A stretch of 47,483 nt of DNA from a virus, in the IMG/VR virus record IMGVR_UViG_3300036985_002823, positions 1 through 47,483 of that record; one strand, written 5' to 3'. Of this stretch, positions 12,147 to 45,846 are shown piece by piece (the first letter of the stretch is position 1; every line of letters begins with the position of its first letter). The position numbers and the translations under genes are program-made. The notes under the pieces were generated by a model. That model made no database searches and was not told the DNA's origin. It worked only from the letters and a program-made list of their open reading frames with translations.

Positions 12147-15100
12147 TTATCTTCTACTAAAACTTTCAAAAGATTGAAGGCCTTTAACTGGATCAACCTG
12201 ACTACCTGAGAAACCTACCATGGTTCCAAAGTGGTTCCATATTTTAGCTTCACCTTCTTTTTGCCAAGGATAAGGACCTGTATCTTTTTTATAGAATAAA
12301 TCTTCATCTTCTCCCGGTAAAGCATGCATTGATAAATCTGTTATGATTTTAGCATAAGAAGTAATAGTTGGTCCAAATGCTAATGATGTAGAACTAGTCA
12401 AATCTAAATAACTATCTAAACCAAAACCCGGTAGAGGAATAAAACTCATGTTTTCTGCCTCTGTTTTTAATAATAGTGTTAAAGCTTGATTAGATAAAAA
12501 ACCTGTTAATTTAAAATCATCCTCACCTAATGCACCAGATTTAGCTTTTAGTTTTTCAAATCTATCCTCATCATCATCATCATAACCAAATAATAAAGCA
12601 GCAATCATAGCAACAGCTAATTTTTGTCCAACATCTACTAGCATTTTCATCATTGCTCTTTTTTCAGATGGTTGTAGATATTTTATATGTTGACCTAAAG
12701 TAGATATTATTTTACTTAAAGATTGTACAGCTTCTATATAATAACCAGATCTTACTGTACCTAAAGCAAAGTTAGCTCTGTCTTTACCAAATCTGCTCAT
12801 AAACATTGTAGTAAAGTATCTTCTCATAAAAGCAAATAATCTATAAGCAAAATACTGTTGAGCTTGTGGTTGTTCAAACTTAGCAAATGCACCATTCAGA
12901 TCTTTGAATTTCTCATGAACAGCATTTTGCATTTTGATAAACTCTTTACCAAGTACAAGTTTTTCTTGACCTGATTCATCAATTTCATAAGTTATACCAT
13001 AGGTAGAATCAATACCATCTTTAAGTTTTAATCTACCTTTTTCATCCATTTCAAAAGCATCAGCATAGTTTATTTTAGTTTCTCTACCATCAACTATCAT
13101 AGGTATTTTTTTATAATACATCATGGAATAGAAAAGTTGTAAACCACCTTCCATCTCCATAAACTTTCTAGGACTATAAATAAAACTTAAACTAGCAACA
13201 TCTTTAGCTAATGTTCTTGATGCATCTTTTCCTAAACTTTCATCAGCTTTACCTTCTAATGGATCCATTAACATGATAAGTTGAGTATCTATAGTATTGT
13301 AGTTTCCTCCCCATACTCTAGTAGTCCACTCTGACATTGCTGTTTTACTTCTGTATTTACCTTTAGCCATTGCAGTATAATCAAAATACTCACCAGCAGC
13401 AGCTTCTACATTTAATTGCCAAATAATACCCCAGTAGTTTTTAACAGCAGAAGGTAGGTTTAAAGCAAAATAATTTATTGATGCACCTTTTGTTATAGCT
13501 GCTGTAACTTTATTAGCCCAATCTAGATGTTTTTCATCATACATTTTACCTTTAAATTCTCTATTATAGAGAGCTTTAAATCCTGCAACACGGTTACTAG
13601 TACCTTTATTACCAAATAAAGCCTTCATACCATCTCTTAAAGTTCCTTGCTTAGCTTTTATTTTATCTATTTTTTGAGCAGCTTCATCTAAGTTTTCTAA
13701 AGTATTTAACATAGCTTGTGCAACTGGTGCAATTTCATTAAATACTTTTTGTTTCTCAGCCTGAAGCATATACAAGTTAAAAGATGTAATTAAGTCATAA
13801 GATACTTCTTCTATAGGAACATTAGACAAACCTCTCATTGGAATTTTATCAATAACAGGATCTAGTAAAGCATTCTTAGCCATTTCCATTTTTTGATAAT
13901 CTTCTTCAAATTCAATATTACCTAAACCTTCTTCTATATCAGTAACTTCTGCAGATGCTATATTAGCTTCTTCTCTAGATTTACCAGATAAAGTTGCCAC
14001 TATACCATTTTTAATACTTTTAATTCTATCAACCCATCTTTTAAGAGGTTTACCTGATCTTAGTAATTCAAGATTTTCTCTTACAGGAAATCTAGGTATA
14101 TCAAGATACAGCTTTTGACTTTTATCTAATCCAGTTTGATTTTTAATATGATATTCTGTTAAGACCTTAAGCATTTCTGCTTTTTTAGGATCACTCATTA
14201 TAGCATAGTATTCATCATTTATGTATTTACCTAAATCACTGTTAGGATCATTAAGTTCAACACTTCTACCTTGTTCAATAAACTGTTCTCTACTTAATGG
14301 TAAATATTCACCTCTGTTATTAACATACTTAGCTTTTTCTTCAGCTGTCATGTCTTTTTTAACAGTTCTAAAATCTTCTTTTATTATAGGAAAAGAATAT
14401 TTATTACTAGGAATACCATTTATAATATAAGTTTCATTTTCATACTTTACAGTAGTTTTTTCTATAAACTGATCATCTTCAGAGTCTTCTATAGGAATAG
14501 CAACACTCCAAGCACTTAACCTTTGATAAGATGTTTTAGTTTCATAAACTCCTGTTTTTTTATTTTCATACTCATACTCTTTTGTTACATGATTTTTATT
14601 AAACCAGTTTTTAAAATTTGCACTTTTATTAAAGTAGCTCTGTAACTTTTTTTCATCCTTCAATAACTCATTAGCACCTATAGCATCAAGAGTAGGAATA
14701 TTCATATTTAAAAGATGCTCATTAAGTTCATCTAAATAATATTCTGTAGGCTGTTTAAATTGTATTTGAGATAATTCTTTTAAAGCTTCTTTTATTTGAG
14801 CTTTTACAATACTACTTACAGGTATTTCATTATTATTAGAAGCATCTTGAATTCTGTTTATGTCTTCTTGTATGTTTTTTAGTTTTTCAAATATCTTATC
14901 CCGGTTAATCATTTTACCAGGATCAGTTTGACCATAACTATCTCTATACCCAATAAGCAGATCTGTCCTTTCTCTATAAAGTTCATCTACTCTATATTCT
15001 TTAGGTATTTCTTTAGATAACTCAGCTAATCTTGTGTAAATATCATTAAGTCTATCATAATAAGCCTGAGTATATTTTACTCTACTATTCTTTTTTAACC

Positions 15101-17786
15101 AGTCTAATTGAAGATCTTTAAACTCATCAGTTAAACTTCCATCACTACTATACTTAGTTACATTAGTATATCTAGGATCAGTAGAAATCATGTTAGAAAA
15201 AGCTTCAAATTCTCTTTGAAACTGACCCTTTTTAGGTAAAAAATCATAATACTTGCCCATTTTTTTTCTGTGGGCACTTAAATCTTTAGCTATTTTTTGA
15301 TCTTTTTCACTTTTTAATACTCCATTATCATCATATACAGAGTATAATTTTTCTCTTTCTTTTAAAAGCATATCCAGAATACTGTTATTTTCATAAGCAT
15401 CAAGCTCATTACTATTAGTTACTCTGAAGTCTTTTATTTTCATGTTAATTTCTTCAAGCTTTACAAAGGCATCATAATTTTCTTTTTCAAGAACTTTTCT
15501 GTCTTCATAATAACTTCTTACATATTCTCTATTAAAATATTTATTTAAGAAGTCTTCTTTATCTTGATAAGCTTGTTTAAGTTTTACAGGATCATTAGCT
15601 TTTTTTGCTTCTTCAATAGCCTCTTCTTTTTCAGCAAGGTCATATCTGCCACTTTTTACAGCTGATATAAGAGATAATACTGATTGTCTTGTTAATTTAC
15701 CATCAGCATCTCTTGTTACTTTTTCATCTACAGTAAGAAATGGTGAAAATTCTTTTTTAGGATCATTACCTGTCATACCTAAATCATCCATAAGAGGAGT
15801 CATCTTTTCTGAAAATTCTTTAGCTCTCATAAAAGCATTAGCAGTAATTTCTGAAGTATGTTTTTTTAAAAATAAAGCAAAGGTTGATATAATAGGATCA
15901 GGATTGGTAGAATAACTTTCAAACATTGTACTCCAAAAGTTAGAGTCTCCTAGTTCACCTGTATAAAGTTTTTTAATTTTATCTTCAGTAAAAGTGTATT
16001 TTTCTTTCTTTTCTTTTGCTTCTTTTAATAACTTGTCTCTGTATGCAGATGGAGCTTGTTTTTCTAAAGAATTAATTTCTTCATCTATTTGTTTAGTTAT
16101 ATTTTCAGCAAAATAGTTTAATAAATCTGTAGTTGTTTTAACAGCACCATCTTCTTGTATTTCAACAAATGTTTCTCTACCTTTTTTAATAGAAGCATCT
16201 AATGTAGCCACAAATCTAAATATGTAACTATCTTTAGGTACACCTGCTTCAAGCATGCTATTTTCAGTGTCACTAATAAACTGACTCCATTGTTTTAATA
16301 AGTCATGAGCATAAGCTACATCCTTAAGTTTATCTTCATACTTAGCATCACTGTTATTAATGTTTTCTAAGTATTTGTTTATTTCATTTAAAGTTTTATC
16401 AAGAGTAAATAAAGAACTAACAAGTGATTTTGTTTTAAATGCTAAAGTAAGATTAGCATAATTTTTAACTTTGTTAGGATCTACATCTTTCAATCTTTCA
16501 GCAATATCTCTTAAATAACCACCTGCTTGTTCATCTGCAATAACTTTTTTAATGTCCCAGTATGGTTTTGCCATTGTGAGCTTAAGTTGATTATCATTAT
16601 ACTGAATAAAATCATCAATAATGCTCATTATTTTACTTTCAGATTCTCTAGTTTTAATAGCATCTATTAATTCTCTAGAAGCTTTTTCTAACTCATTATT
16701 AAAGTTATTTACATCTTCAGGTTTTATTTCTTCTGTTTCAATCTTAAACTTATCACTTTGCAAAAGTTTAGCAATTTCTGTTAAAGGGGTATTTGTTTTT
16801 AACTTGTCAGCTTTTACTTTACCAAACTCACCTCTTATCTGTTGTCTTGTTTTATACAATAAGTCATTTTTAATAAACTCTTGAAAAGCCTGTGTATCAG
16901 TATCTAAAGCTATTGATGAGTTAGTATTTTTAAGTGAAGCATCATATTTTAAAGCCTCAGCTAATACTAGTTCTTTATAGATATCAGAATCTTTATTGAT
17001 CATAGTTGGATACATAGTATCAACATTGTTCATTATTTCTTCTGCTTGTGGTAGTTTTAAAAACTTAGCATATGCTTTATTAAAATCTTCTTTTTTGTTA
17101 AGTCTTAAAGAGTTAATAAAGGGTATAGATAGTTCACTAAAAGTAGTATTTAAAGTTATCCTATCTTCTACCATGTAATATTTACCATGCAAAGAAAACA
17201 CATATTGACCTTGGTATGGTATATTACTATTGTTAAGTAATAAATTAGCTTCTTTAGCTGTTACAATAACAAAGTCTTTGCCTAAAGTTTGACCTATTTT
17301 GTAGATAATTTCATCTTTTCTCATTTTGTTTTGAAGCTCTATAACATTTATAGGCTCTACAAAGTCATCAGGTACTTCATTAGCAATTTCTTCAAGTGTT
17401 TGATATTTTTCTTTTGCTTTTTCTTCTTCTTCTTCTGTTCTTTTAACTTTTTCACCTTCAAATATTTTAGATAAGTATTTGTTTTTATCTAACCATTCTT
17501 TGTAAGCAGGTTCATTAAACATATCTTCTTTAGCATTCTCAATAAGTTCAAGAGCACTAGTATTATATGTAAACTCTTGTCTTTTAACAAGAGGTACATG
17601 TTTGTTTAATAAAGCAGTTGCTTTTGCTGGTTCTGCTTCTAGGAATAAGAAAAATCCCCCGGCTACAGGTTCAGGAAGAATATCTTGTCTTGAAGACATC
17701 CATATTTTCCAGGTGTTATCTTCACCTAAAGTTTTTTCCAGAGCTACCCAGTCTGGACTAGTTTTTATTGGACATGCACCTTTCAT
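12147..17786 (-). CDS. Giant virion-internal protein, 1879 aa
   Basis: No enzyme domain is recognised. The protein is highly charged and helical through most of its length, with many Lys/Glu coiled-coil-like stretches. A region near the C-terminus contains SINYFALNLPSAVKNYWG and a likely membrane-like segment KLAVAMIAALLFGY (about 1712-1728), followed by an acidic DDDDED run; it ends QSFESFSRR. Its place directly after the RNA polymerase giant, with which it shares a TAATG overlap, fits the sets of two or three giant head-packaged proteins of crAss-like phages that are linked to the virion RNA polymerase. It may be another subunit or part of the ejection channel; this is inference from context. 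Confidence 0.82.
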   Translation of the reverse strand: MKGACPIKTSPDWVALEKTLGEDNTWKIWMSSRQDILPEPVAGGFFLFLEAEPAKATALLNKHVPLVKRQEFTYNTSALELIENAKEDMFNEPAYKEWLDKNKYLSKIFEGEKVKRTEEEEEKAKEKYQTLEEIANEVPDDFVEPINVIELQNKMRKDEIIYKIGQTLGKDFVIVTAKEANLLLNNSNIPYQGQYVFSLHGKYYMVEDRITLNTTFSELSIPFINSLRLNKKEDFNKAYAKFLKLPQAEEIMNNVDTMYPTMINKDSDIYKELVLAEALKYDASLKNTNSSIALDTDTQAFQEFIKNDLLYKTRQQIRGEFGKVKADKLKTNTPLTEIAKLLQSDKFKIETEEIKPEDVNNFNNELEKASRELIDAIKTRESESKIMSIIDDFIQYNDNQLKLTMAKPYWDIKKVIADEQAGGYLRDIAERLKDVDPNKVKNYANLTLAFKTKSLVSSLFTLDKTLNEINKYLENINNSDAKYEDKLKDVAYAHDLLKQWSQFISDTENSMLEAGVPKDSYIFRFVATLDASIKKGRETFVEIQEDGAVKTTTDLLNYFAENITKQIDEEINSLEKQAPSAYRDKLLKEAKEKKEKYTFTEDKIKKLYTGELGDSNFWSTMFESYSTNPDPIISTFALFLKKHTSEITANAFMRAKEFSEKMTPLMDDLGMTGNDPKKEFSPFLTVDEKVTRDADGKLTRQSVLSLISAVKSGRYDLAEKEEAIEEAKKANDPVKLKQAYQDKEDFLNKYFNREYVRSYYEDRKVLEKENYDAFVKLEEINMKIKDFRVTNSNELDAYENNSILDMLLKEREKLYSVYDDNGVLKSEKDQKIAKDLSAHRKKMGKYYDFLPKKGQFQREFEAFSNMISTDPRYTNVTKYSSDGSLTDEFKDLQLDWLKKNSRVKYTQAYYDRLNDIYTRLAELSKEIPKEYRVDELYRERTDLLIGYRDSYGQTDPGKMINRDKIFEKLKNIQEDINRIQDASNNNEIPVSSIVKAQIKEALKELSQIQFKQPTEYYLDELNEHLLNMNIPTLDAIGANELLKDEKKLQSYFNKSANFKNWFNKNHVTKEYEYENKKTGVYETKTSYQRLSAWSVAIPIEDSEDDQFIEKTTVKYENETYIINGIPSNKYSFPIIKEDFRTVKKDMTAEEKAKYVNNRGEYLPLSREQFIEQGRSVELNDPNSDLGKYINDEYYAIMSDPKKAEMLKVLTEYHIKNQTGLDKSQKLYLDIPRFPVRENLELLRSGKPLKRWVDRIKSIKNGIVATLSGKSREEANIASAEVTDIEEGLGNIEFEEDYQKMEMAKNALLDPVIDKIPMRGLSNVPIEEVSYDLITSFNLYMLQAEKQKVFNEIAPVAQAMLNTLENLDEAAQKIDKIKAKQGTLRDGMKALFGNKGTSNRVAGFKALYNREFKGKMYDEKHLDWANKVTAAITKGASINYFALNLPSAVKNYWGIIWQLNVEAAAGEYFDYTAMAKGKYRSKTAMSEWTTRVWGGNYNTIDTQLIMLMDPLEGKADESLGKDASRTLAKDVASLSFIYSPRKFMEMEGGLQLFYSMMYYKKIPMIVDGRETKINYADAFEMDEKGRLKLKDGIDSTYGITYEIDESGQEKLVLGKEFIKMQNAVHEKFKDLNGAFAKFEQPQAQQYFAYRLFAFMRRYFTTMFMSRFGKDRANFALGTVRSGYYIEAVQSLSKIISTLGQHIKYLQPSEKRAMMKMLVDVGQKLAVAMIAALLFGYDDDDEDRFEKLKAKSGALGEDDFKLTGFLSNQALTLLLKTEAENMSFIPLPGFGLDSYLDLTSSTSLAFGPTITSYAKIITDLSMHALPGEDEDLFYKKDTGPYPWQKEGEAKIWNHFGTMVGFSGSQVDPVKGLQSFESFSRR

Positions 17787-20700
17787 TATTCACACTCGTT
17801 TTTCTTGTTATCTATATCATTTTTATTAGTTGGAACATGTTGATTTACAATGTCATCAATTGATGGTCCAGCTTTAATATCCGGGTTAGTTACACCAAAG
17901 TTTTCATTTGTCTTGTTAGACAAATATAGTGATAATTCATCTGTTTTAGTAGTTTGTGGTTGAGTACCTAACTTAGCAGGTGTTTTAGGCATACCTGGTG
18001 TTAAGTCTGCAGCTCTTCTAAAGGTAAGAGTAATAGTATAGTTAGTAAGAGTCCTACCATCAGAAAGTTTAATTGCAGGAAAAGGATTCTTTTTTACATT
18101 ACCTAATGGTGTAGTATGAGAAAGGTTAAATCTTCCTTTACCATCCATTCCAAAAGTATAAATAGTTCCATCTTTGGTTAAAATTTCATTAGTAGGTTTT
18201 CTACCTTGATAATCTTCTTTATATGCTCCTTGGAATGTCATTTTACCTTTATTATCATCCCATATACCAAGACCTGAATCATTACCTATTGTATATACAA
18301 TAACTGGATAGCCTTCTGCAGATTTAGCTTCTGTAGTATCTCTATGTGGAGCAATACTTTGTTTATCTAAATAAATATTACCCAAAACAGAATCATAACC
18401 AGACATATCTATACCTAAAGCAGTTTGTATTTTATCTATTAAAGGTTGCAAGTCTGATATAGGAGGTAAAGGATTACCATCCTGATCAAGTTCATGATAA
18501 TCATAAATATATTTAGATTTATCAACTACTTTACCTGTTTTTTTAAGTTCTTCAATTAAACTTTTAACTTTATTGACTCCAGCAAAAGAGTTAATTAATA
18601 ATGGTTTAGCTTTAAGATTTACTCTACTCCACATATTACCAAAACTAAATTGCCAGTTAGCATTAACTCCAACATTTTCTTTATAAGCTTGTTTTTCAAT
18701 TTGTGGAGCTATAAGATTTATAACTTCTTGAGTATCAGCTTTTGTAGGATTGGTTTCAGCTTGAACTACACCATAATCTGAAGATATAACTTTTACAGCA
18801 GAAGTTACAGCAGCTTTTGATTGAGGAAGTTCTTCTCTTAACATATCTCTTACAGTCATAGTTACTTCTGGAAAATCTTTTTTCCATCTTGTATCATCTT
18901 GAGTATGAGTAATAGTAGCATTCCCAGTAGCTAATAATTTTTCAGCAGCTTTTGGATTTTGTACATAAGAATCATACATTAAGTTTAACATAATAGATTT
19001 AGCAGTACTATCCCATTCCTTAGTTTGTTCAGGAGTCATAGGTAAGTTTGCTCTACTTGTTAACTTTTTCAAGTCTCCCCCTCTTGTAGTTTCTAAAACT
19101 TTTTTAGCTACTGTAGGGTTATTAGCAACTATAGTTTTATAAAAATGGAAGCCTTGTTCTACACTTTGGAAAGTATAAGTTTTTGTACCAGAAGAAGTTT
19201 CTACATTAATAGTAAAAGGTCTAATAGCAAAATTACTTAAATCAGCATATTCTTTTGTACCTGCATAGATGTTAATCTTAGTTTCTGGTCTAGGTAATGT
19301 TTCAGTACTTACAGGAGCTTGAGTAGGTGTTTTTTCAGTTGTCTTTTTATTAAATACTGTATTGTCAAAGAAGTAAGAAGTAAATATTATGTCTTTACCT
19401 GATTTTTGAATATTAGCTAATTCATTTATAGCTGCATCAATACTAGCTTTGGACTTCTCTAAAGATTCTGTTGGCATTAATTTAAACTCTCTGTTAAGAT
19501 CTGATAGAGAATTCATAACTACAACTTCTGGATTATTTTCTTTTATTAAAGATAATACTTTATTATTTGGATTAGATTCTCCACTCATAGAAGCATTATC
19601 AAGTAATTTTTTATACTCGCTTGAAGTTTGATCCATTATATAAATACTAGGTTTTACTTCAGTAACAAAAGGTAAGTTATTGATATTTAAAGCATTATTA
19701 ACTTTGAGTCCTTTAACTTCATCTACACTTTTATTCCAATTTAAACCACGGTTTCTTAATGCAAAGTTTTTTGAGTTAAGATTAACTTTATAAAACTCAG
19801 TAAAGCCTTCAAAGAATTCATTAGCATTTTTACTATTAAATAACTTATTCATATCCACAGATGCCTTACTCATTACTCTTTTATACTTATCTAATGGCAT
19901 TACGGTCATCAAGTTAAACTCACTAGAATTCATACCTGATTGCAAGAAAGTATACATAGGTAATTCTGAAAAGAAATTACTTATATATTCATTTAATGCA
20001 AGGCTACCTGGTATTTTAATAAATGAAGGATCACCAAGCTCTTTTAACTGTCTTCTATAATCATTCATTTTAGCCTCATCCATATCAGCCTGATCAGTTA
20101 AAGTAAAATTTAAAATACCTGTATACTTTTTATCTTTTTGATTAGGTATAGCTCTTGCTACAAACTTATCTATTATAGTGTATTTTTTACCAAGTACTGG
20201 ATTATTTTTAATAATATCCATTAACTCAGCAGCAATAGTATTTTTACCAGACTTAAATAACTTGTAGTTATTGTAAGTATTTTTTAAAGCTGTTTGATTC
20301 AACCAGTTCTCATAAGCATATTTAGCTGCAGTTTCACTATTAGCAAACATGTTATTGTTAAAACTGTTAACTTTTAATTCATTATATTTTTGATTAAACA
20401 GCTGTTGTTGTTTAACATACTCATAAGAATAAGTTTTTCTCAAGTATTCTCTTTCTAAAGCAAACTCAATAAAGTCTTCTACTTTAGCATCTTGAAAAGC
20501 AGCTTGTTCTACATAAAATAAACCTTTATTTATATAAGCAAGAGGATTAAAACAAGTTTTATTATTAAAATCATCAATCACCTCTTCCAAGTTAATTAAC
20601 TCATTAATAGGTATTTGATTGTAGTGAGTATCTCCAGTTTTGTATTGCTTTAAACCATTTACAAAAAAGTAATGATACAATGCATTTTGATATCCTATAG

Positions 20701-23700
20701 CAAACTTATAAGCATCCTGACCTGTTACATCTTTAATTCTGTTAAATACTTTATAGTTTTCTACAGTATTTAATAGGTAATTAATCAGCTTTTCATCAGT
20801 TCTTGTTTTAAATAATGGACTAAATAGATCATTAGCAAAATCATAAACCATAAAAGGACCAAGTGCTCCACCTTCAAGTATTTTAGGTAATAAATCAGAA
20901 TTAATAGTGGGACTATTTTCTAAACCTTTTATTTCTCTAAGTTTTACTTTAGCTTCAAATAAGTTAGGTTCTGTACTAGTATCAGGATTTAATGTCATTT
21001 TCATTCTATCATAATCAGCCATTAAATCTTCAATAAGAAGATATTGAATAAAACCTGCAGATTGTGCTGGACCAAAGTTTAATTTTTGTAAAGCTGTAGC
21101 TTTTAACTCTTCAGTTGTAAATTTACTATCTGGATGCAAATAGTTTAATAATACTTGTAATCCATATACATTATCTTTATTTACAGAATAATCTTTAGGA
21201 GCATTTTTTGTAGATATTTTATCAAGCATTATTTTTTTAGCCATGGACTTAGCTCTAGAGCTGTCATGGTCACTTCCGTAGATTAGTTTAGATAATGGTG
21301 CTCTATAGTTACTTTCTAGATTAACATATTCTCTAATCATTGGATTAGTCATAAAATATGCTATTTCTTCATAAGGTACACCAGCATCAACCAAGAATAA
21401 TATTTTTGGTATTACTGTGGGATTACCTTGAATATAAGCTACCCATTCATCTTTACCAATATCTACAAATCCATTTAATAACTGTGATATAATTTCAGAT
21501 ACTAGGTTTTCATCATTAACATCTTTAATGTGAGATAATGATATTGAACCATCTTTAGTAGTTTGATATCTTAGTTTAATAGCATCATTAATACTAAAGT
21601 CTACTGCTTTTTCATCTTTATTTTCAGTTTTTATAACAATAGGCATAGTTTTATTAAGCTTTGCACCATGTATTCTAAACTGATTACTATTAGTACCACC
21701 TACTGCAACAATACCTAAACCTTGACCACCTGAAATATTATCTTGTTGTTTTTCAGTATTATAGTCTGGCTCTAACATTCTTGTAGCACTGATACCTTTA
21801 GCTTTATTTTTCTTACCAGTCATTATAGACTTTTCAAAGTCTCTTTTGCTATCATTTTCCTGGATGATTTTCTTAAGACCTTTTTCATCTTTAGAATCTT
21901 CAGTAATATATTTAGTAAGATGGGTATCATTAGGAGCTAATAACACATCAGCCATTTCAGGCATTGATAAAACATCAGTAAGAGCATCAATAAGATTATT
22001 TTCAACAACTTTTGTAAAGTTTCTTTTTTGCTCTTTAGCAAGACTTAATTCAATAGCAGTTTTAGATAATGATGTTTTTTCAGCATAAAGATCATCTAAA
22101 GCTTCTAGTATATTATCATAATCCTTTCTATCAAAGTTTTCAATCTTACTAGCAAATATACTATAAGCATCTTTTAAGTTATTTTTTAAATACTCTTGTA
22201 ACTTTTTATTTTGTAAATTTTCAAGTAACTCTTTATTATTTTTTGTAGTTAATGTTTTAAAATTACCTACATATGAAGTTTCAGCTACATCAAAAATAGC
22301 TTGTCTAAAATCAGCAAGATTATCTTTAATAAAGGCCCACTTTAATTGTTTCTCAGTAAGCTTTGTTTTAATTTCACCTTTTATAGCTTTTAGTTTTTCT
22401 TTTTCATATCTTTCTTCTAGCTGTTTAATATAGTCTTCTAACTCTTCATATGTCTTAAAGCTGTCTTTAAATAAAGTTCCTTTAGTAGATATGTACTTAG
22501 AGTAAGAAGTTAATTTATCAACGTCAAAGTCAGTACCAGACTTAGCTACAATTTCTGCTGGTATAATAACAATATTACCTGCTTGAGGAGGAAGAAACTC
22601 TTGTACTTCAGCAAACTCAGCAGAGTTAGGTCCTTGCACAGGAATTCTTACCCCGGTTAATCTGATTTTTAATCTATTGTTATCATCATTTAACCACTGG
22701 TTTACTTTTAACATTTCATTAAGTCTGTTAAAACTTGCTTTAAAATCAAGCTCTCTTTTACCATCCTTGTCTTTTTTGTATACAGCAATTTGACCAGATC
22801 TTACATAGTTACCTTTATCATCTTTTGCAAAATAATTAGTTTGAAATAAGTTTTGATAAGATTCATTAAGAGCTATCTTAACACCAAAAGCTTTTGTATT
22901 TTCTTTACCATTAACATCAACTATGTATCCTCTTATACCACTTGTTCCATAAGTCTCAAGTTCTTTTTTATCAGGTTTTCTATAGTTAACATCTTGTGCA
23001 AATACATTAGATACCTCAACTAAAGGTTCACCTGTAACTTTTAATCTTACTATTCTATTATTAATAATAGATAATAAAGCTTTTTCAATTCTAGGAGATG
23101 CTGGATGTGTACTTAAATCTACAACACCATTACTGTCAGTATCTATATAGTCAATTTCTGCTTGACTATACCCTTGTTTTTGTAATTCTTTCTTTACAAA
23201 TTTTACTAGTTCTTGAATATCACCTTCAATTTTACCAGTTTTAGGATCTTGAGTAAACTTTAACTTTCTTAATATATCAGCTCTTTTTAAACTAACTAGT
23301 CTATCAATCAAAGAAAACACTTTATCAGTATTTTCTTTTGCTTTTTCATTAATAGACTTACCTTCAGCATATAAACTAACATTAAATAACTTACGTAACT
23401 GAGTTGCTAAGGTAGATTGACCTTTGAAATAATCATTAACTTTTGTTTGATTTTTAAGATATGCTACATATATAGGATTGTTAGTAAACTCAAAGCCTTC
23501 TTTAAGTCTACTAGTATCATTTTTTTCAAATATATCATCACCTTTTGAATCAGGTGAGTTTTTAATATAAGATTGTTTTGATCCTGACTCAAATAGTATG
23601 TAGTCCATACCTTGTTTGATCATTTCAGTATTTAACTGTTCATATATTTTACCATCAATTACTCCTGGTATAAGTGGAAATAAACTAAACTTATGTATAC

Positions 23701-26700
23701 TGTTAATAGGGTATTTATCTTTAATAGCTAATGCACCCGCGTAACCTAATTTGTATACAGGAAATAATGAAGCTAGTTCATCAGCTGCTATACCTTTACC
23801 TTCTATAATACTCTTATAAACTTTTTCTTGAGCATCAGACCAATCTGATTCTAGTTTTTTTAATATTCTATAAGAGTCTATTGTGATATAACCTTGACCA
23901 TCAGCCTCTTTTATTTCAGCATAAGGCTTCATCCTTCCACCTTTAGGTATACCGTTTTCATCAATGCCATCACCATAAAGTTCTCTGTTTATTTGAGCTT
24001 CATTAGTAATGCCTTTTCTTATTAATGCATTTCTAAACATTTCTGCATACATATCAAAATATGCTGATTTGATTACAGAATCTTTAATAATAGCTGTATT
24101 AAAAGTACCATCATGTTTTTTTAGTTCTTTTTGAGGTATTTTACCTTCAGCCATTAATTTTTTCTCAAATTCTCTTTGAGCAAATGTGTTTACAAAATCA
24201 TTAGCTACTGAAGAAGTTGCAAATATAGTTCCTGGTGATTGATAAGGAGGTATCCTTTTTGTACCTTCAGCTTTAGCATGATTAAATTGGAAAAAATCTG
24301 TATGAATTAAGGCACCAGCCTCTGCTGTATAAACCCATGAGTTAAATACAAAAGATCTAATTACACCATTTCTAAGAGCTTCATTTTTAGCTTGTCCAAG
24401 TTGTTCTAATTTTTCTTTTACTTTAAGTTGATTTTTATCATCTAATGATATAAATTTTTTCTCAAAAGCTTTCTGAAGTTCAGCAGGTATAACATTTGTT
24501 TTTGTACTGTCTTTATAATACTGAATGTTTAAATCAGTAATTTTATCAAAGTATAATATTACTTGTTGTTTAAGATCTGCACTTAGGTCTTTATTATCTC
24601 TAAGTATTTCTTTTAGAGATTTATTACTTAGTTGATTCAATATATCATCAGATAAAAGTACTTCTTTTAGACTAAGTTTATCTTCAACTTTTTCTTGCTC
24701 TAGCACATCATCAAAGTTTGTAAACTGTAATGCTTTATCTTTTTCAAAACCATTATAGTTTTTATAATACTCATAATTATCTTTGATCATTTTTATTCTT
24801 TTCATCTCAGCTTCAATCTTAGGATAGATAATACTATCTAATATTTTTTCTTGAATTAGAGGATCAAAGTATTCATCATTAGCATCTTTTATAAAACCTT
24901 GTGTATCAGCAAATAAATAATCTGTTTGTTTATTTAAGTATGTATTATATTTTTTAACTTTTATACCCAAGTATGTTTTCTTTTCACCTGCTCTAGATGT
25001 TGCTTCTTTTACACCATAAAATAATAAACTTGTAATATCTGTAAATACTTTATCAAGTTTAGTCATTTTAGAATAGGGTATACCCTCTACAGTTCCATCC
25101 AAACCTACATAAGCAACTCCATCCATATCTGCTACATAAATACCATTATTGGAATTTGCTATTCCTGTTCTAGGATCAAATAAAGAGTTAAGAGTTATGC
25201 TAGCTGCTGTATTAGGGTTAAACTCAGGATTTAAGTATGACAAGTGTTTATAGTCACCGGTTGTGTCAAACATCTGACCTTTTTCTTTAATTTCAGAAAT
25301 ACTTCCTAAAATCTGAGTATATGTACTATTTAATGAAGCTGTTGATTTTAAATTACCAGAAGCAGCCTTAACCATTTGTGAAGCATACTCAATAGAATGT
25401 TCAGCTTCAAGTAATGCTAAATTATCAATTCTACCTACAGATGAATTATATGATATATAACCTTCTTTACCTGATTTATATTTTATTTTAAAGTTTTGAT
25501 TTTTACTTAAAAAATTAATGGGATCAGTAATTTCAAGATTGTTATATTCAGCTAGACCAATAGCTTGAGCTATATATTTAACATCTTCTTCTTTTAATTC
25601 TTTCTCAATACTAGGGTCATTAGTAAGATATAAACCTATACTATTTAAAAACTTTAAATAGTTTGGTTTATCTACTGTATATATAATTTGATCTTTAGAG
25701 TCAAATATTTCTTGTTTATTAAAAAAAGCTTTTTTAATCTCTGATAAGTCAAGCATGTTTTCTTTAGTATCAGATTTCTTTTTAACAAAGATTGATGTTT
25801 CTTGAGCAAACTTAGAAGGCCAGTCTTTCTTTTTTATTTTATAGTATTGAGCTGAAGCTTTACCTACTTTTACATCTAGTTTAATTGCATTATCTTCACC
25901 ATAGTTTATTTCATACTGTGTAGTAATAAGAGGCATTGAATAAAGATTTAATGATCTCCAGAAGCTTAGCCACATTTTTGCAGCATTTTCATTCTTCATT
26001 ACTACAGTAGGATTGCCTAATTTTGTTTCTAGTTGTTTAAAGTAAGGGGCAACATTATTTTTAATAGTTTCACCTAACTTATTATACAATCCTTCTATAT
26101 GTCTTTCACCGGTTAATTTATCCACTATAACTCTCCATGTAGAAATAAAATCAACAGGTTCAGGAAAACCTAAACTGTTTAACTTAATAGTACCATCTTC
26201 ATTTTGTTTGTATAAACTTTTTACAAGATATAAAGTTTCTTTAGCAGCTATGTCTTGAGATTTAGAACCATTAGCAGGCTTTTCACCCATTCTTTCTAAA
26301 TACTCTAGTTTCTTTTCATCTGTTTCATCAATCTCTACATCATAATCAGTAATAGTAAATATATCATTGAATGCTGAGTGCTCTTTATGAAATGCTACAA
26401 CAGAGTTTGTATTAGCTTTACCAGCAAGAACATCTTCTATACTGCCAAAATTTTCTTCTTTTAAAGCTGTAGTTAATACTTTAATTTTTCTTTTTAAAAT
26501 ATCTTTTTGAATATCAGAGTTAACAGTTTTTATTAAATCATTAGTTTTTTCTAACTCATTACTAAATGCAACTTTTACTATTTCATTATAAATCTTTACT
26601 TGATTTTTAGGACTTGTAATAGATGATAGAACAAAACCATTTCTTATTTCACCTTTAGCTTTACCTTGTTTAATAAAATTTTCAGTATAAAGTGATATAA

Positions 26701-29242
26701 TACCATCTATACTATTAGTAAGCTCCATAGCTTCTTGATAGTTTAATATAGTATCACCATTCTCAGCTAAAATACCAGAATTAAGTGTGCCAAATTCAAC
26801 ATTATCTACATTGTACTGAAACTTGCTTATGTCTTTTTCAGATTTAGCTGTGTACAAAATATTGAACATTTCATCAAGAACACTCTTACTACCAGGGTTA
26901 GAGTAAACATTTGTAGAATTTTTGAATAAATTCTTAAGTAGCTCCCACACTCTGTTAAATACTTTCTTGAATATGTTAGCTTTTTCATTCTCGGTTTTAA
27001 ATTTACCTTTATTAATAGCAAATATTCTAAACTCTTCTGCTATAAATTCTTCTAGTAATAGTCTATCAGCTTTGTTGTTAGGATTTAAGTCACTAAACTT
27101 AACAGTAACTTTTTCATAATTGTTACCAGCAGGTCCACCTGTTTTTTTAATTACTTGAAAACTGCCTTTAAGTTTTGCTGTAGATTTATATAAATTATCT
27201 TTTTCTTTTTTAGTAAGGTATAATTGACTAAATGCATGCCATGCTTCATGATAACCATGAGTATAGCTAGCACCTTGATATAAAGTAACTGCTGCATTTG
27301 AAAATGAAGCCCATGCATCAGAGTTTACTAATGTTCTAGTAAAATCAGTAGATATAAGTTTTTTACCATTCTCATCAACAGCTTTAAATATTGGATGACT
27401 TTCTAAAAATTGTTTAGCTCTTTTTTCTTGTTCTGCTGTAGTAGGTATTTCTTCAAGAAGTTTTGATCTATAGACAAATTCATCTCCATTTACATCAGGC
27501 AATTCAAAAGTGTTATTATTAGCATTATCTTCTTCAGCTTTTTGAACAACTTCTTTTACCTGCTTGTTTATTTCTATTTGAGCATCAGCATTTTCAAAAG
27601 TAAAATAGCCATTGACTATAAGTGGTTTGTTGTTAGTTTCATTCTTTATTACATTAAGATTGTGTCTTTCTGCTATAAAGTCATAGTAGTTTAAATTTGC
27701 TACATCTAATTCATTTTCTTCACCAATTTTATAAAACTCTAAATTATTAGAGTTATATGGACCTTTGATAAATGTTATATAGTATTCTCCTAAGTTATTT
27801 TTAAGAATTTCTTTTGAGCCTTCTTTATCATTTTCTATATCTAATCTTTTATTATCTACAAAAATACCATCACTGGTAATGTTGATATTAGATTTTAAAT
27901 TTATAAACTGTCTTATGTAGTTTATTTTATCATTTGCTGTTAATGACTTACCTAATAACTTAACATCATTAAGAAGTATGTCAAGCATAGAATTTAGCAC
28001 TTCAGCATCAGCAGATCTTTGATTTATTTTAAGAGGATTACTTATAGAAATGTTTATACCATTACCAAAAGTTAAATGAGGCACACTTCTACCATTTTTA
28101 TCAGTTAAAATTGATATACTTCTTTTTTGTTCTTCTGTTATATCAAACTCTTTTAATAAACTTTTTTCTGTTTTGTTAGCTGGTACAACAGGTATACCAA
28201 TCATTCCACCTGTTATCTCTAACAATACATTTTCTTGTTTTGCTTTTTCAATAAGAGATTTAATATAAGCTTGCTCCTGTTTTAATCTATTCTCAATAAT
28301 TTTATCAACTTTAGAATATATAGTTCCTAAGTCTTCTTTAATACCTTTTTGTTCAGCAACAGTTTCATATTGTTTTACAAGATCATTTTGAAGTCTTGTT
28401 TTTATACTTTCTAGTTTACTAGAATCTACAGATCCTATAATAAAGTATGCAATCTTTCCTTCACCTTCTTGTACAATTGCTCCATCTTCATTGAAATATA
28501 AAAAGTTTCCATTGTTATCTACAATAGCTGTAACAATATTATCAGATGCAGTTCTACCAGGATATAAGTTATTAGCTGGTAATTCAGATTCTTTAAGTGC
28601 TAGTAATCTAAAACCTCTATGACTTGAGTATTCAATATCACTAAAGGTTAATTCAACACCTTGATTTTGTTCTAATATATTACCTAATACTTTGTAGTAA
28701 ACATCTTTTTGAGGGTTGGTTTTATTTCTAATAGGTTTACCATTCTCTTCTTGTAATTGTTGACCTGTAGTTTTAGCTATTTCAGTAGGAAATAATAAAT
28801 CACTTTCTTCTACTACACCATCCTTAATAACTTCAATTTTTATTTGCTGAGGTTTAACTTGGTTAGCAATTTCTTTTTGTATTTCTTCTAAAGACTTACC
28901 TTGCAAACCTAATAACTTAGATAATTTATTTAAACCATCAACAGTTTTTACTGTATCTAATAAACCTTTTAAATTATCAAGTTGCTTACCGCTTAAATCT
29001 TGTGACATATCTAACTCAGGATTTGCTTTAAACAAATTGTTGATAATGCTAGGAATATGATAAGCAATACCCAAAGCTTGAGCATGATCTTGATTTTTAG
29101 TAAAGGTTGTATAATAAACTTTTTTAGTTATAAATACTGGATCAAAGTTCTTATTCTTTACACTGTCTTTTACTAGAACATTAACATATTGTTCTAATGC
29201 TTTCTTTAAATCACCTAGTTGTTCTAAATTACAAACACTCAT
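17786..29242 (-). CDS. Virion RNA polymerase giant protein with zincin, NADAR and AlkB-like domains
   Basis: At 3818 residues this is among the longest phage proteins. Near residue 665 is HEAWH with a downstream EEFIAEE (about 730), a zincin-type site. The RNA polymerase active site is SGTDFDVDKL, with D2238, D2240 and D2242, preceded by RIPVQGPNSAEFAEVQEFLPP-like sequence; it corresponds to bacterial NADFDGD, with Val for Gly. About residues 1840-1900 (HKFSLFPLIPG) may be the second barrel. Residues 3320-3475 form a NADAR (YbiA-like) domain: LSNFAI, SVEQGFHFYKT, then DDTRWKKDFP. Residues 3560-3750 are AlkB-like: H3633-R-D3635, H3709 and R3742 in TLTFRRA. crAss-like polymerases are packaged and ejected to transcribe early genes. 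Domain limits are approximate. Confidence 0.92.
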   Translation of the reverse strand: MSVCNLEQLGDLKKALEQYVNVLVKDSVKNKNFDPVFITKKVYYTTFTKNQDHAQALGIAYHIPSIINNLFKANPELDMSQDLSGKQLDNLKGLLDTVKTVDGLNKLSKLLGLQGKSLEEIQKEIANQVKPQQIKIEVIKDGVVEESDLLFPTEIAKTTGQQLQEENGKPIRNKTNPQKDVYYKVLGNILEQNQGVELTFSDIEYSSHRGFRLLALKESELPANNLYPGRTASDNIVTAIVDNNGNFLYFNEDGAIVQEGEGKIAYFIIGSVDSSKLESIKTRLQNDLVKQYETVAEQKGIKEDLGTIYSKVDKIIENRLKQEQAYIKSLIEKAKQENVLLEITGGMIGIPVVPANKTEKSLLKEFDITEEQKRSISILTDKNGRSVPHLTFGNGINISISNPLKINQRSADAEVLNSMLDILLNDVKLLGKSLTANDKINYIRQFINLKSNINITSDGIFVDNKRLDIENDKEGSKEILKNNLGEYYITFIKGPYNSNNLEFYKIGEENELDVANLNYYDFIAERHNLNVIKNETNNKPLIVNGYFTFENADAQIEINKQVKEVVQKAEEDNANNNTFELPDVNGDEFVYRSKLLEEIPTTAEQEKRAKQFLESHPIFKAVDENGKKLISTDFTRTLVNSDAWASFSNAAVTLYQGASYTHGYHEAWHAFSQLYLTKKEKDNLYKSTAKLKGSFQVIKKTGGPAGNNYEKVTVKFSDLNPNNKADRLLLEEFIAEEFRIFAINKGKFKTENEKANIFKKVFNRVWELLKNLFKNSTNVYSNPGSKSVLDEMFNILYTAKSEKDISKFQYNVDNVEFGTLNSGILAENGDTILNYQEAMELTNSIDGIISLYTENFIKQGKAKGEIRNGFVLSSITSPKNQVKIYNEIVKVAFSNELEKTNDLIKTVNSDIQKDILKRKIKVLTTALKEENFGSIEDVLAGKANTNSVVAFHKEHSAFNDIFTITDYDVEIDETDEKKLEYLERMGEKPANGSKSQDIAAKETLYLVKSLYKQNEDGTIKLNSLGFPEPVDFISTWRVIVDKLTGERHIEGLYNKLGETIKNNVAPYFKQLETKLGNPTVVMKNENAAKMWLSFWRSLNLYSMPLITTQYEINYGEDNAIKLDVKVGKASAQYYKIKKKDWPSKFAQETSIFVKKKSDTKENMLDLSEIKKAFFNKQEIFDSKDQIIYTVDKPNYLKFLNSIGLYLTNDPSIEKELKEEDVKYIAQAIGLAEYNNLEITDPINFLSKNQNFKIKYKSGKEGYISYNSSVGRIDNLALLEAEHSIEYASQMVKAASGNLKSTASLNSTYTQILGSISEIKEKGQMFDTTGDYKHLSYLNPEFNPNTAASITLNSLFDPRTGIANSNNGIYVADMDGVAYVGLDGTVEGIPYSKMTKLDKVFTDITSLLFYGVKEATSRAGEKKTYLGIKVKKYNTYLNKQTDYLFADTQGFIKDANDEYFDPLIQEKILDSIIYPKIEAEMKRIKMIKDNYEYYKNYNGFEKDKALQFTNFDDVLEQEKVEDKLSLKEVLLSDDILNQLSNKSLKEILRDNKDLSADLKQQVILYFDKITDLNIQYYKDSTKTNVIPAELQKAFEKKFISLDDKNQLKVKEKLEQLGQAKNEALRNGVIRSFVFNSWVYTAEAGALIHTDFFQFNHAKAEGTKRIPPYQSPGTIFATSSVANDFVNTFAQREFEKKLMAEGKIPQKELKKHDGTFNTAIIKDSVIKSAYFDMYAEMFRNALIRKGITNEAQINRELYGDGIDENGIPKGGRMKPYAEIKEADGQGYITIDSYRILKKLESDWSDAQEKVYKSIIEGKGIAADELASLFPVYKLGYAGALAIKDKYPINSIHKFSLFPLIPGVIDGKIYEQLNTEMIKQGMDYILFESGSKQSYIKNSPDSKGDDIFEKNDTSRLKEGFEFTNNPIYVAYLKNQTKVNDYFKGQSTLATQLRKLFNVSLYAEGKSINEKAKENTDKVFSLIDRLVSLKRADILRKLKFTQDPKTGKIEGDIQELVKFVKKELQKQGYSQAEIDYIDTDSNGVVDLSTHPASPRIEKALLSIINNRIVRLKVTGEPLVEVSNVFAQDVNYRKPDKKELETYGTSGIRGYIVDVNGKENTKAFGVKIALNESYQNLFQTNYFAKDDKGNYVRSGQIAVYKKDKDGKRELDFKASFNRLNEMLKVNQWLNDDNNRLKIRLTGVRIPVQGPNSAEFAEVQEFLPPQAGNIVIIPAEIVAKSGTDFDVDKLTSYSKYISTKGTLFKDSFKTYEELEDYIKQLEERYEKEKLKAIKGEIKTKLTEKQLKWAFIKDNLADFRQAIFDVAETSYVGNFKTLTTKNNKELLENLQNKKLQEYLKNNLKDAYSIFASKIENFDRKDYDNILEALDDLYAEKTSLSKTAIELSLAKEQKRNFTKVVENNLIDALTDVLSMPEMADVLLAPNDTHLTKYITEDSKDEKGLKKIIQENDSKRDFEKSIMTGKKNKAKGISATRMLEPDYNTEKQQDNISGGQGLGIVAVGGTNSNQFRIHGAKLNKTMPIVIKTENKDEKAVDFSINDAIKLRYQTTKDGSISLSHIKDVNDENLVSEIISQLLNGFVDIGKDEWVAYIQGNPTVIPKILFLVDAGVPYEEIAYFMTNPMIREYVNLESNYRAPLSKLIYGSDHDSSRAKSMAKKIMLDKISTKNAPKDYSVNKDNVYGLQVLLNYLHPDSKFTTEELKATALQKLNFGPAQSAGFIQYLLIEDLMADYDRMKMTLNPDTSTEPNLFEAKVKLREIKGLENSPTINSDLLPKILEGGALGPFMVYDFANDLFSPLFKTRTDEKLINYLLNTVENYKVFNRIKDVTGQDAYKFAIGYQNALYHYFFVNGLKQYKTGDTHYNQIPINELINLEEVIDDFNNKTCFNPLAYINKGLFYVEQAAFQDAKVEDFIEFALEREYLRKTYSYEYVKQQQLFNQKYNELKVNSFNNNMFANSETAAKYAYENWLNQTALKNTYNNYKLFKSGKNTIAAELMDIIKNNPVLGKKYTIIDKFVARAIPNQKDKKYTGILNFTLTDQADMDEAKMNDYRRQLKELGDPSFIKIPGSLALNEYISNFFSELPMYTFLQSGMNSSEFNLMTVMPLDKYKRVMSKASVDMNKLFNSKNANEFFEGFTEFYKVNLNSKNFALRNRGLNWNKSVDEVKGLKVNNALNINNLPFVTEVKPSIYIMDQTSSEYKKLLDNASMSGESNPNNKVLSLIKENNPEVVVMNSLSDLNREFKLMPTESLEKSKASIDAAINELANIQKSGKDIIFTSYFFDNTVFNKKTTEKTPTQAPVSTETLPRPETKINIYAGTKEYADLSNFAIRPFTINVETSSGTKTYTFQSVEQGFHFYKTIVANNPTVAKKVLETTRGGDLKKLTSRANLPMTPEQTKEWDSTAKSIMLNLMYDSYVQNPKAAEKLLATGNATITHTQDDTRWKKDFPEVTMTVRDMLREELPQSKAAVTSAVKVISSDYGVVQAETNPTKADTQEVINLIAPQIEKQAYKENVGVNANWQFSFGNMWSRVNLKAKPLLINSFAGVNKVKSLIEELKKTGKVVDKSKYIYDYHELDQDGNPLPPISDLQPLIDKIQTALGIDMSGYDSVLGNIYLDKQSIAPHRDTTEAKSAEGYPVIVYTIGNDSGLGIWDDNKGKMTFQGAYKEDYQGRKPTNEILTKDGTIYTFGMDGKGRFNLSHTTPLGNVKKNPFPAIKLSDGRTLTNYTITLTFRRAADLTPGMPKTPAKLGTQPQTTKTDELSLYLSNKTNENFGVTNPDIKAGPSIDDIVNQHVPTNKNDIDNKKNECE

Positions 29243-29252
29243 ATTAATTTTA

Positions 29253-32200
29253 TTAGCAAAGTTTATCTAAAAAGTTATTAGCAGCATCTTCTTCTGAAAC
29301 ATTATTATTATAAGAAGTTTCAGGTTTTACAATAGCCTTTTGATTATTGATAATTTGATCTTTATCTTCTTCTGTAATATTAGAAGTGCTTGGATCAATT
29401 ATAGCTACTATTTTGTTTTTTATGTCAGAAACTGGTACTATCACTTTATCACCTAATCCTTCCAAAGTTACATTATCTCCAGCTATTTTGCTAATAGAAT
29501 ATCTACTTGGTTGAGAATTTTTTTCTGGTGCATAAAGTACTTCATAACCTTGAACCTTAGCAGCCTCTAATGAAAACTTGTTGATATTTTTATTCATATC
29601 TTCAAGAGTAAGATTTGATTTATCTTCTTCTGTTTTTATGATATTTTCTCTTATATAAGTAAAAGGTTTTTCTTTTACTATATTATCAACAATTCTGTAA
29701 ACACCAATAACATTTCTCATTTTTCCATCAATTTCCATGTTAGTTTTTTTCAAAACTACTTTTTGACCCAATGGAGTAACATTACCTTCTCTAAAAGGTG
29801 TAGTTCTAACTACTCTACCATCATCCAAAGTAATTTCATAAGATTGGTTTTCATAGTTCATGTATTCACCTATAGCATATGTTCCTTCTAGTTGATTGTC
29901 ACCTTTAAGTTCTGTTATTAATTCTTTAAACTTTTCTGGTATAGACTTTTGGTTAAATACTTCTATATCAGCAGGTTGTGCAAAAGTTAATGTAGATATT
30001 ACAGTTTCTTCAGCAGGTTTGCCTTCTAAAGCAGCTAGTTCTGCATCATATTCTGCTTCTAAGATTTTAGGGTCTAAAACTTTTTGAGCTAGTTCAATAT
30101 CATCTGAACTCATATATCTAGGTTGAACTATCATAGGGTTAATAGTATCACCTGTTATTAATGTAGAATATTTATCTTTTAGTTGTTTAAATATTTCATC
30201 TTTTTTTCTAGCAACATATGCTTCTTTTGTTTCAGCTCTCTTAGCTTCTATATCTGTAGTAGTTGTACCTTCTAAAGTTTTTAGTTTAGCATCATATTCA
30301 GCTAGTACTTCAGGTGTAGTCATCTTATCTACTATAGCTTGATCCATACCAAACTTAGATACTAGATCTAATCTACCTTCTACTTCTCTTGGTACAAATC
30401 CAGTAGATGGAGTAACTGGAGCTTTTGATTTTATAGATTCTCTTTTCTTATTGATAGTCATTAAAAAATCAGGTGTCATAACACCCACTTTATCCATCTG
30501 ATCTATAACAGTATCAAGTTCCTTTTCACTTACTGCTTTATTTATAAGATTATTCCAGTTTATTTTACTTGTAATAAGAGGTTGTAAATAATCTTCAACA
30601 ACTTTATCATAAGTTACTTCAGCATATTCTTTTTTAAACTCAGGTTTTACTTCTGTAATTCTAGCATTATCATCATAACTAACACCTATAGGAATTAAAG
30701 CTAAAGAAGTAACTTCAATACCCAGCATGTCTTCTAGCATTTTTTTATAGATAGAAAGCTGAAGTCCATAAGCTTCTTTTTTTCTATTTTTATCTTCAGG
30801 TTTACCAAACTTGTTCCAGTTTTGAGAAGTTTTTATATCATATATTTTAAACTTACCATCTTTATCAATAACAAGTAAATCAAGCTCACCAGCAACTTTT
30901 TGCTCTGTTCCTTTAACATTGTATCTACCAAAAGGTACAACACCAGATGCTATAACAATCTCACCTCTTTCTTGTAGTTTCTTTCTTACTTCATATAAAG
31001 TATCATACAAACCATTGAAAGCAGCTTGTGTCATCTTTGTAGGTTTCTTAATAGGATTACCTTCAAAAAAATCTCTAGCAACACTATCCAGTTCATTACC
31101 CACATCTCTAGACTCTTGATAAAATACATCACCTAAAACTTTTTTAAATGTTTCACGTAATGTAGTAGGGGATTCTGTAAGGGCAGCTTTTAAGGCAGTA
31201 ACTTTTTTATCAGTAAGTTTATTTGTTAGAGATTTAAGACCTTTAACTTTTAAATTATCAACTACATAATTTACTAAGTTGTTAGCATATTCACTAGGAT
31301 ATTTGGCTTTTAGAGATAAATCTTTTAAAGCTTTATCAAATAGCTCAAATACAGGTTTTACATTCTCAACACCTTCAATATCAAATGCTGGTACATTATA
31401 TACTTCTTGTAAGATTTGATCTTTTAACTTAGTAACTCTAAGATTATAGTCTTCACCTTGGATTTTATAACCTGTCTGATCATCTTTCTTTTTAGCATCT
31501 TTAGATACTTGTTTTAATTTATCTAATGCTGCAGATTGTTCAGGAGTTAACTTATCAGATAACTTTCTGATAGCTAATGCATTTTCTACACTTTTAAGTT
31601 CAACTTCTTCTTCATCTGTTTTGTTTTCCTTATTAACAAGCTCTTCATATCTAGCTTGTAGTTGTTCTGTTGTTACAGCAGCATAAGTATCTTTTTTCTC
31701 AGCTTTTTGAGCTTCTTTAATATATTTACTTACTATATTATTAGCTATTGGACTTTCACTAATAAACTCATCTAAAGTTGTATCAGGAGATAAGGCATCA
31801 TTAGCAATAAGACTTTTTCTTTTTTCATCAAGTTTATCTAATAAATCTTGAGGATAAGTAGAAATTTCTCCTAAAGTAATACCAGCACCTTCTTCTGTAG
31901 TAATCTTAGCTTTAGGTTTTTCTTCTTCTTTTGCTTTAGGAAATAAACCATCAAATATATTTGCTACTTTTTTAAATCTTTCATCATCTCTACCTACTTC
32001 TTGTTCTTTTTCTTGATCATAAAGAGTATTAATACTGGGCACCGGTTTATTGTTTTCAACAGCATCTCTAAACTTTTTAAGATCTTCAGGTTTTAATATT
32101 AAACCAGATCTTTTGTATATCTCATTAAGTAAAAAGTTAAGATCATTTCTACCAGCAAATACATTATTATTATAAGCTAATGTATTTTCCATATCATCAA

Positions 32201-45131: not shown

Positions 45132-45846
45132 TATCTTGGTGAATAAAGTGTTTTAGTATCTGTTCTTCTATTTGATCTTATATTATAAACAGTATATGTA
45201 GAAATATTATATTTTAAAGCAATTTCTTTAGTAGTCATTTCTTTATTTTTTATAATATTTATTATTTCAAGTACTGTATCAATAGAAAGTTTTCTGCTTC
45301 TATGATTTAAGCTTACTTTTAATCTGTGTTCTAAGGTATGAGTTTTACCTTTTTTAATATTTGATATTTTATTTCTAGTTTCTTTAGATACAATTACTCC
45401 TTTTCTATGTCCTACTCTTCCTTCTAAAAAAGATTGTTTTATAGCTTTTGATAAATTTTGTTTGTGTTCCTCTGTTCTTATGCCTGGTTTTTTACCTTTT
45501 CTTATTTCAGACATTTTTAATTTAACTTTATCTGTATGTTTTCTACCTCTCATTGGGGCAGTTGCAGAATAAGTACAATTTAATCCTTTATTAACACAAT
45601 CATAAAATTTTATATAAAACTCTTCCATTGGATTAATATCATATTTATCTAAGTTATTTGCTATAATTTCAAATATATGATTTTCAAATGTATATTTATT
45701 AAATGATTTATACAGTTTTACTTGAGTTTTTGCTGAACAGTTTTTATAAAAATTTAATCTTTTTTTATAATTAAATGTTTGCCCAATGTATATTCTACCG
45801 GAAGGACTAGTAATTTTATATATAACACCTGTATTCATCATCTTGG
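45127..45846. repeat. Near-perfect direct repeats flanking the free-standing endonuclease
   Basis: TTCATTATCTTGG at 45127-45139 and TTCATCATCTTGG at 45834-45846 agree at 12 of 13 bases. On the minus strand each reads CCAAGAT[A/G]ATGAA and holds the end of one gene (SPR-stop) overlapping the ATG of the next. Removing one copy plus the endonuclease gene would rebuild a single stop/start junction between the two virion genes. Confidence 0.85.
45131..45841 (-). CDS. Free-standing GIY-YIG homing endonuclease
   Basis: This 236-residue protein has the nuclease domain V6-I-Y8, Y18-I-G20, R28 and a Glu at 73/74 (PMEEFYIKFY). It continues with repeated NUMOD3-type DNA-binding motifs (GRKHTDKVKLKMSEIRKGKK, and others to about residue 190) and a helix-turn-helix at 195-232 (TTKEIALKYNISTYTVYNI). 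The key residues are intact. It lies between two virion genes with tiny overlaps at both ends. Its last residues, LYSPR, copy the last residues of the upstream protein. It probably cuts the same site in phages that lack it. No intron core is visible around it. Confidence 0.92.
   Translation of the reverse strand: MMNTGVIYKITSPSGRIYIGQTFNYKKRLNFYKNCSAKTQVKLYKSFNKYTFENHIFEIIANNLDKYDINPMEEFYIKFYDCVNKGLNCTYSATAPMRGRKHTDKVKLKMSEIRKGKKPGIRTEEHKQNLSKAIKQSFLEGRVGHRKGVIVSKETRNKISNIKKGKTHTLEHRLKVSLNHRSRKLSIDTVLEIINIIKNKEMTTKEIALKYNISTYTVYNIRSNRRTDTKTLYSPR

Follow-up and report, generated by a model that had tools for sequence, protein, structure and literature searches.

This locus raises the question of why an RNA polymerase of the virion type should end in a NADAR and an AlkB-like domain, and what these domains might do in the host cell. 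The window, meaning the whole stretch of DNA analysed here, is a virus record of 47,483 bases bearing the hallmarks of a crassvirus: a muzzle-protein domain at the right end, a DNA polymerase of the B family and, on the minus strand, three giant ORFs, hereafter A, B and C.

29253..34973, minus strand: protein A, giant cargo protein with a PDDEXK domain, 1906 aa; its sole Cys is the last residue (codon 29256-29258)
17786..29242, minus strand: protein B, virion-type RNA polymerase with an accessory tail, 3818 aa (open frame; core profile match to 6vr4, 1.3e-40)
12147..17786, minus strand: protein C, giant RNAP-associated cargo protein, 1879 aa; its sole Cys is residue 5 (codon 17772-17774)
45838-47253: muzzle-protein fragment

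Two ORFs resembling GIY-YIG/NUMOD homing endonucleases were also observed, at 2802-3566 and 45131-45841, the latter abutting the muzzle-protein fragment.

The frame of protein B was free of stops along its entire length. A profile of 38 RNAP cores matched the phi14:2 virion RNA polymerase 6vr4, with the DxDxD motif aligned, and by this match the ORF is a Crassvirales virion-type RNA polymerase, as had been proposed for the 3818-aa protein. Its parts are listed below.

29231..29233, minus strand: Cys4, facing A
27236..27250, minus strand: HEAWH zincin-like motif in the N-terminal region, aa 665-669
22181..23110, minus strand: RNAP core used as profile, aa 2045-2354 (profile match to 6vr4)
22517-22531, minus strand: catalytic DFDVD, aa 2238-2242
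18803..19279, minus strand: NADAR domain, aa 3322-3480, catalytic E3362, K3369 and H3446 (Pfam, YbiA/8bau profile matches, AF2 and Foldseek, invariant residues)
17942..18814, minus strand: AlkB-family 2OG-Fe(II) dioxygenase domain, aa 3477-3767, with N3622, Y3624, H3633, D3635, H3709 and R3742
17789..17956, minus strand: native RNAP C-terminal segment kept beyond the inserted cassette, aa 3763-3818 (C-terminus profile match)
17792..17794, minus strand: Cys3817, the penultimate residue, facing C

In one relative (cr108_1; L172 18396-18700), the RNAP frame was interrupted within the catalytic motif (...VAKAGSD / DIDKMY...) by ~290 bases, which are probably a self-splicing intron.

The identity of the NADAR domain is near certain. 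Pfam NADAR (PF08719) matched aa 3330-3453 with 45.6-52.8 bits, above the curated cut-off of 35.1. The AF2 model, built on an alignment of 40 rows (the window and IMG/VR loci), reached a pLDDT of 89.6, and only YbiA and 8bau (Phytophthora NADAR) matched it in Foldseek below E=0.001. The original prediction had placed the domain at about 3320-3475; the position was right, and the bounds are corrected here to 3322-3480. E3362, K3369 and H3446 were invariant across 57 NADARs, and the first two correspond to the catalytic E88/K95 of the E. coli C7 NADAR (PMC11543638). The candidate for the position of the third catalytic acid is an invariant T-H; the ungapped alignment with 8bau sets H3446 at E125, and the alignment with YbiA opens a gap there. 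The third acid is probably replaced by His, as stated for phage NADARs.

The AlkB-family assignment of aa 3477-3767 is also near certain. Taken by itself, the Pfam match to 2OG-FeII_Oxy_2 (PF13532) at aa 3566-3655 is weak, since its 20.8-23.9 bits fall under the curated cut-off of 31.2, which is a filing threshold and not a biological feature. The scores of relatives secure the call (L036 83 bits, L038 and L043 51 each, L134 37) and, as these stand in the same alignment, mark the window domain as a divergent member of the family. A profile of the tail AlkBs matched E. coli AlkB at E=8e-11, with N120/Y122, H131/D133, H187 and R204 in register. The AF2 model reached a pTM of 0.80, and its best 50 PDB matches in Foldseek were all of the AlkB family (E=7e-11, prob 1.00). 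A sequence search of the PDB with the first five AlkBs had found no match; the matches came with the wider profile and with the search by fold. No relative of the tail AlkB subfamily was confirmed in GTDB bacterial genomes, and no annotated match to the window AlkB was found in PHROGs. The residues H3633-x-D3635, H3709 and R3742 were exactly as originally described, and the N-x-Y, HxD, H and R were kept by all 11 tail AlkBs, which are 24-80% identical to that of the window. The two folds anticipated for the tail, NADAR/YbiA and the AlkB double-stranded beta-helix, were thus both returned by AlphaFold and Foldseek, and a search for the loss of catalytic residues among relatives found none in 11 AlkBs and 57 NADARs.

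We also asked whether the tail is particular to this phage. The NADAR profile search of IMG/VR returned 71 loci, and in 58 of them NADAR shared an ORF with the RNAP motif, mostly at the C-terminal and at times at the N-terminal side; in some of the others it lay in another giant ORF. The loci with the RNAP motif included 46 RNAP cores distinct at <60% identity. On 72 RNAP tails we found NADAR (33), AlkB (14), SF1 helicase (11), DUF7831 (9), SLOG/cpYpsA (7), ART-PolyVal (3) and others, counts which are not frequencies because the tails were partly selected through NADAR. The order of domains was NADAR-AlkB in the window, the reverse in L002, NADAR-AlkB-helicase in L001, AlkB-NADAR-helicase in L038 and L043, AlkB-SLOG-NADAR in L041, and NADAR-ART-AlkB in L036; SLOG adjoined NADAR in L005, L006 and L041. 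In the sample drawn by the RNAP core alone (the closest 80 loci of 509), profiles detected NADAR in four loci, two of which are the same phage lineage, and AlkB in four, Pfam added two further AlkBs, and ~34 tails were more than 150 aa longer than the accessory-free length. NADAR and AlkB tails therefore recur among crAss-like polymerases; the fusion described originally holds, and is extended here from one tail to many. As judged from these sequences, the RNAP tail is a hypervariable cassette site that takes exchangeable enzymes in changing orders. A separate observation is that the tails of L013, L015 and L036 join ART-PolyVal, an ADP-ribosyltransferase, and NADAR in one polypeptide, placing a writer next to an eraser.

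At the DNA level the window is demonstrably mosaic, with cassettes exchanged between distant phages. In DNA, the AlkB block (17941-18815) shares 82-84% identity with L001, L002 and L003, phages whose RNAPs are just 24-41% identical to that of the window, and the NADAR block (18830-19285) shares 80-81% with L005, L006 and L011. The RNAP cores of L001, L002, L003, L006 and L011 share 21-41% identity with the window core. Conversely, L016 has an RNAP nearer to that of the window (45% identical) and a NADAR that is only 40% identical. We considered and dropped the idea that 80 bp where NADAR begins, 82-92% alike in DNA across distant phages, form a recombination hook, as codon use in them was only slightly more uniform than that of other conserved positions.

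The alignments also demonstrate where the cassettes enter, namely upstream of the native RNAP C-terminus. Accessory-free RNAPs have a conserved terminal segment ~870 residues past the core, and in six relatives with extra residues (L002, L018, L020, L101, L134 and L146) this segment was found beyond them, at the extreme end. The window end matched a profile of accessory-free C-termini with 16.8 bits (iE 2e-6, for a search of a small set). L018 and L089 represent the filled and the empty state: NADAR fills the alignment gap, and the two share 63% identity where they align.

Whether the tail reaches the host depends on its packaging. Mass spectrometry detected homologues of the three cargo proteins in virions of crAss001 (gp47, gp50 and gp49 in the order A, B, C; PMC10172136) and, according to the record annotation, of phi14:2 (gp67, gp66 and gp65). 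In the window, A, B and C contain 0.05-0.08% Cys, and most non-virion ORFs 1-2%. Cys was absent altogether from the 11 tail AlkBs, which total 3,160 residues, and from the 9,097 tail-NADAR residues counted; E. coli AlkB has four, T4 gp30.3 two and YbiA none. The absence is a strong signal for AlkB and a weaker one for NADAR, since YbiA itself lacks Cys. Because both domains are Cys-free like the other cargo, and the terminal Cys and the native C-terminus are retained, the tail should travel in the virion. The expectation that it rides with the virion was in this way supported, and the window tail is likely packaged with the RNAP; virion presence was seen in homologues, and the window phage is known from a metagenomic fragment alone.

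The few cysteines of the cargo proteins lie at facing termini. Cys was present at the end of A in 63 of 70 loci, at the start of B in 77 of 84, within the last few residues of B in 119 of 124, within the first 12 residues of C in 107 of 108, and at the end of C in none of 64; the counts are not independent, as loci of one record set share ancestry. Per RNAP-core cluster (46 clusters, 50% identity), the figures were 11/15 for the A end, 19/25 for the B start, 40/43 for the B end and 33/34 for the C start. The interior Cys frequency was 0.007% in A, 0.04% in B and 0.03% in C. At A-B junctions Cys stood on both sides in 63 cases, on neither in 5 and on one side in 1; at B-C junctions the numbers were 107 for both and 1 for neither.

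Some exceptions are explained by an ORF break inside the RNAP (L091) or by neighbours that match RNAP pieces (L043, L027). A-B fusions (L022, cr10_1, cr130_1) lacked the Cys at the fused start and kept that of the B end; in L022 and cr130_1, the two in which C was observed, C still starts with its Cys. The pattern was the same in cr108_1, in which B is additionally split inside the catalytic motif. L057, with B and C fused, had no Cys at its end. Both phi14:2 and crAss001 follow the rule, with the RNAP Cys of crAss001 ninth from the end, and TAG-as-sense Suoliviridae-type phages, in which interior Cys is less rare, still have the terminal ones. We rejected L093 as a B+C fusion that keeps its junction Cys; with TAG read as sense and two Cys (1877, 1882) at the boundary, it is probably two rule-abiding proteins.

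The single Cys at the A end, B start, B end and C start suggests a head-to-tail cargo train linked by disulfides. Metal binding by these residues and their docking to a third protein are alternatives. We found no report of the terminal-Cys rule in the literature searched, and the disulfides reported for crAss001 are in tail assembly, none being reported between cargo proteins (PMC10172136). The mass spectrometry of that study set reduced samples against untreated ones. We put forward only tentatively, at somewhat less than an even chance, an A-B(RNAP)-C train that would be oxidised while in the particle and become reduced in the host cytoplasm, with the RNAP cassette inside, so that enzymes and polymerase would be threaded in fixed order and host modification disarmed before transcription. 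If the rule does reflect disulfide linkage, it offers a direct and cheap test of cargo ordering and ejection in crassviruses.

The reading that we favour, and hold to be fairly probable, is that the RNAP C-terminal region serves as an effector insertion site, and that the NADAR and AlkB tail is packed, injected and erases host-made marks at once. Between the RNAP body and its own C-terminal peptide sit an ADP-ribosyl hydrolase of the NADAR kind and a demethylase of the AlkB type; these would be packed with the RNAP, cross the phage tail partly unfolded within a chain of cargo proteins, and refold with the RNAP in the host cytoplasm. There they would immediately clear nucleic acid close to the transcribing polymerase of ADP-ribose and of alkyl or methyl marks that the host has made, soluble ADP-ribose signals being an alternative target of the NADAR in this scheme. 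Mark removal would protect the incoming genome and the early transcripts before new proteins exist. The substrates, the injection and the anti-defence role are what we infer for the tail, and the last of these is plausible. The single phage NADAR assayed in the literature, from an E. coli phage and of the gp30.3 family, removed ADP-ribose from guanine in vitro and did not rescue cells from DarT1 (PMC11125620). Among the window ORFs scanned by Pfam we found neither an ART nor a linked DarT toxin of the DarTG type; PADLOC gave a weak candidate-model match only.

Soluble ADP-ribose signals have been argued equally as a NADAR target (PMC9503650). In the first of three rivals, the tail is injected, the NADAR acts on such signals or on toxins of host immunity, and the AlkB resets methyl marks of host or phage, with no repair of genome bases. 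For the Macro, NADAR and SLOG domains of phages the soluble target has been argued (PMC9503650), for sporadic phage AlkBs the resetting of methyl marks (PMC7824862), and the three tails with SLOG beside NADAR fit the former; however, the recurrence of NADAR, AlkB and a nucleic-acid helicase on the polymerase (L001, L038, L043) indicates nucleic acid, and we regard this account as unlikely. Less probable still, though with analogies in its favour, is a tail that guards RNA by demethylating or de-ADP-ribosylating nascent viral transcripts, as is thought for the AlkB and Macro/NADAR domains fused to the RdRp of RNA viruses. NADAR occurs beside RdRp in RNA virus polyproteins (PMC9503650), and among the structures matched by our AlkB model are polyproteins of Riboviria and one Pithovirus protein whose name refers to a NADAR domain, but the domains are also found N-terminally or in other giant ORFs. 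That a protease removes the tail before it is packaged, or that the tail is carried along without enzymatic function, is very improbable: the HExxH zincin-like motif, which 60 of 71 RNAPs have within their first 1300 aa, could make the RNAP a metallopeptidase that might process the polyprotein, yet the catalytic residues are invariant across 24-80% identity and, past the cassette, the protein still has its native C-terminal peptide and terminal Cys.

If the favoured reading, that of an injected eraser of host-made marks, is true, the phage arms its virion polymerase with interchangeable counter-defence enzymes active at time zero, and the RNAP C-terminal cassette becomes a searchable site for new anti-defence domains in a virus group highly abundant in the human gut. 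The original suggestion that the module could be undescribed holds within the literature searched, where no paper joining Crassvirales and AlkB was found; one paper that joins NADAR with crAss-like phages contains no treatment of such a fusion.

Among known systems, the phi14:2 gp66 polymerase shares a homologous catalytic core, the gene order and the terminal Cys with the window RNAP, but it has 2180 aa, and the window protein has 3818 with NADAR and AlkB domains. T4 gp30.3 and the YbiA/DarT1-linked NADARs share the fold and the catalytic Glu and Lys, and the ungapped alignment would put His at the acid position, as is reported for phage NADARs; they are free-standing, whereas in the window a virion RNAP carries the NADAR. 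E. coli AlkB has the same HxD...H...R, N-x-Y and fold, and differs from the window AlkB, which is fused, has large extra loops and is ~15% identical. Some RNA viruses have polyproteins in which AlkB or NADAR accompanies RdRp and SF1 helicase; these resemble the polymerases of L001, L038 and L043, which carry the same domain trio, and the NADAR protein of Pithovirus LCDPAC02 likewise combines NADAR with an AlkB-like region. The viruses are unrelated, and these likenesses are likely convergent. Thermus phage P23-45 also fuses its virion RNAP to another giant virion part, which there is the tape measure protein and not effector enzymes (PMC10770324). We file the window system with the polyvalent proteins known from phages and conjugative elements (Iyer et al. 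2017, as described in PMC7824862 and PMC9503650), as injected effectors of the polyvalent type for which a virion RNA polymerase is the carrier. The set of tails has the polyvalent features (large, multidomain, shuffled, including ART-PolyVal), and the window tail holds NADAR and AlkB only. Polyvalent proteins are likewise giant, injected, multidomain proteins with shuffled effector domains, and ART-PolyVal stands beside NADAR in relatives of the window; in contrast to them, the carrier here is the virion RNAP itself, and its effectors are inserted upstream of the conserved RNAP C-terminus.
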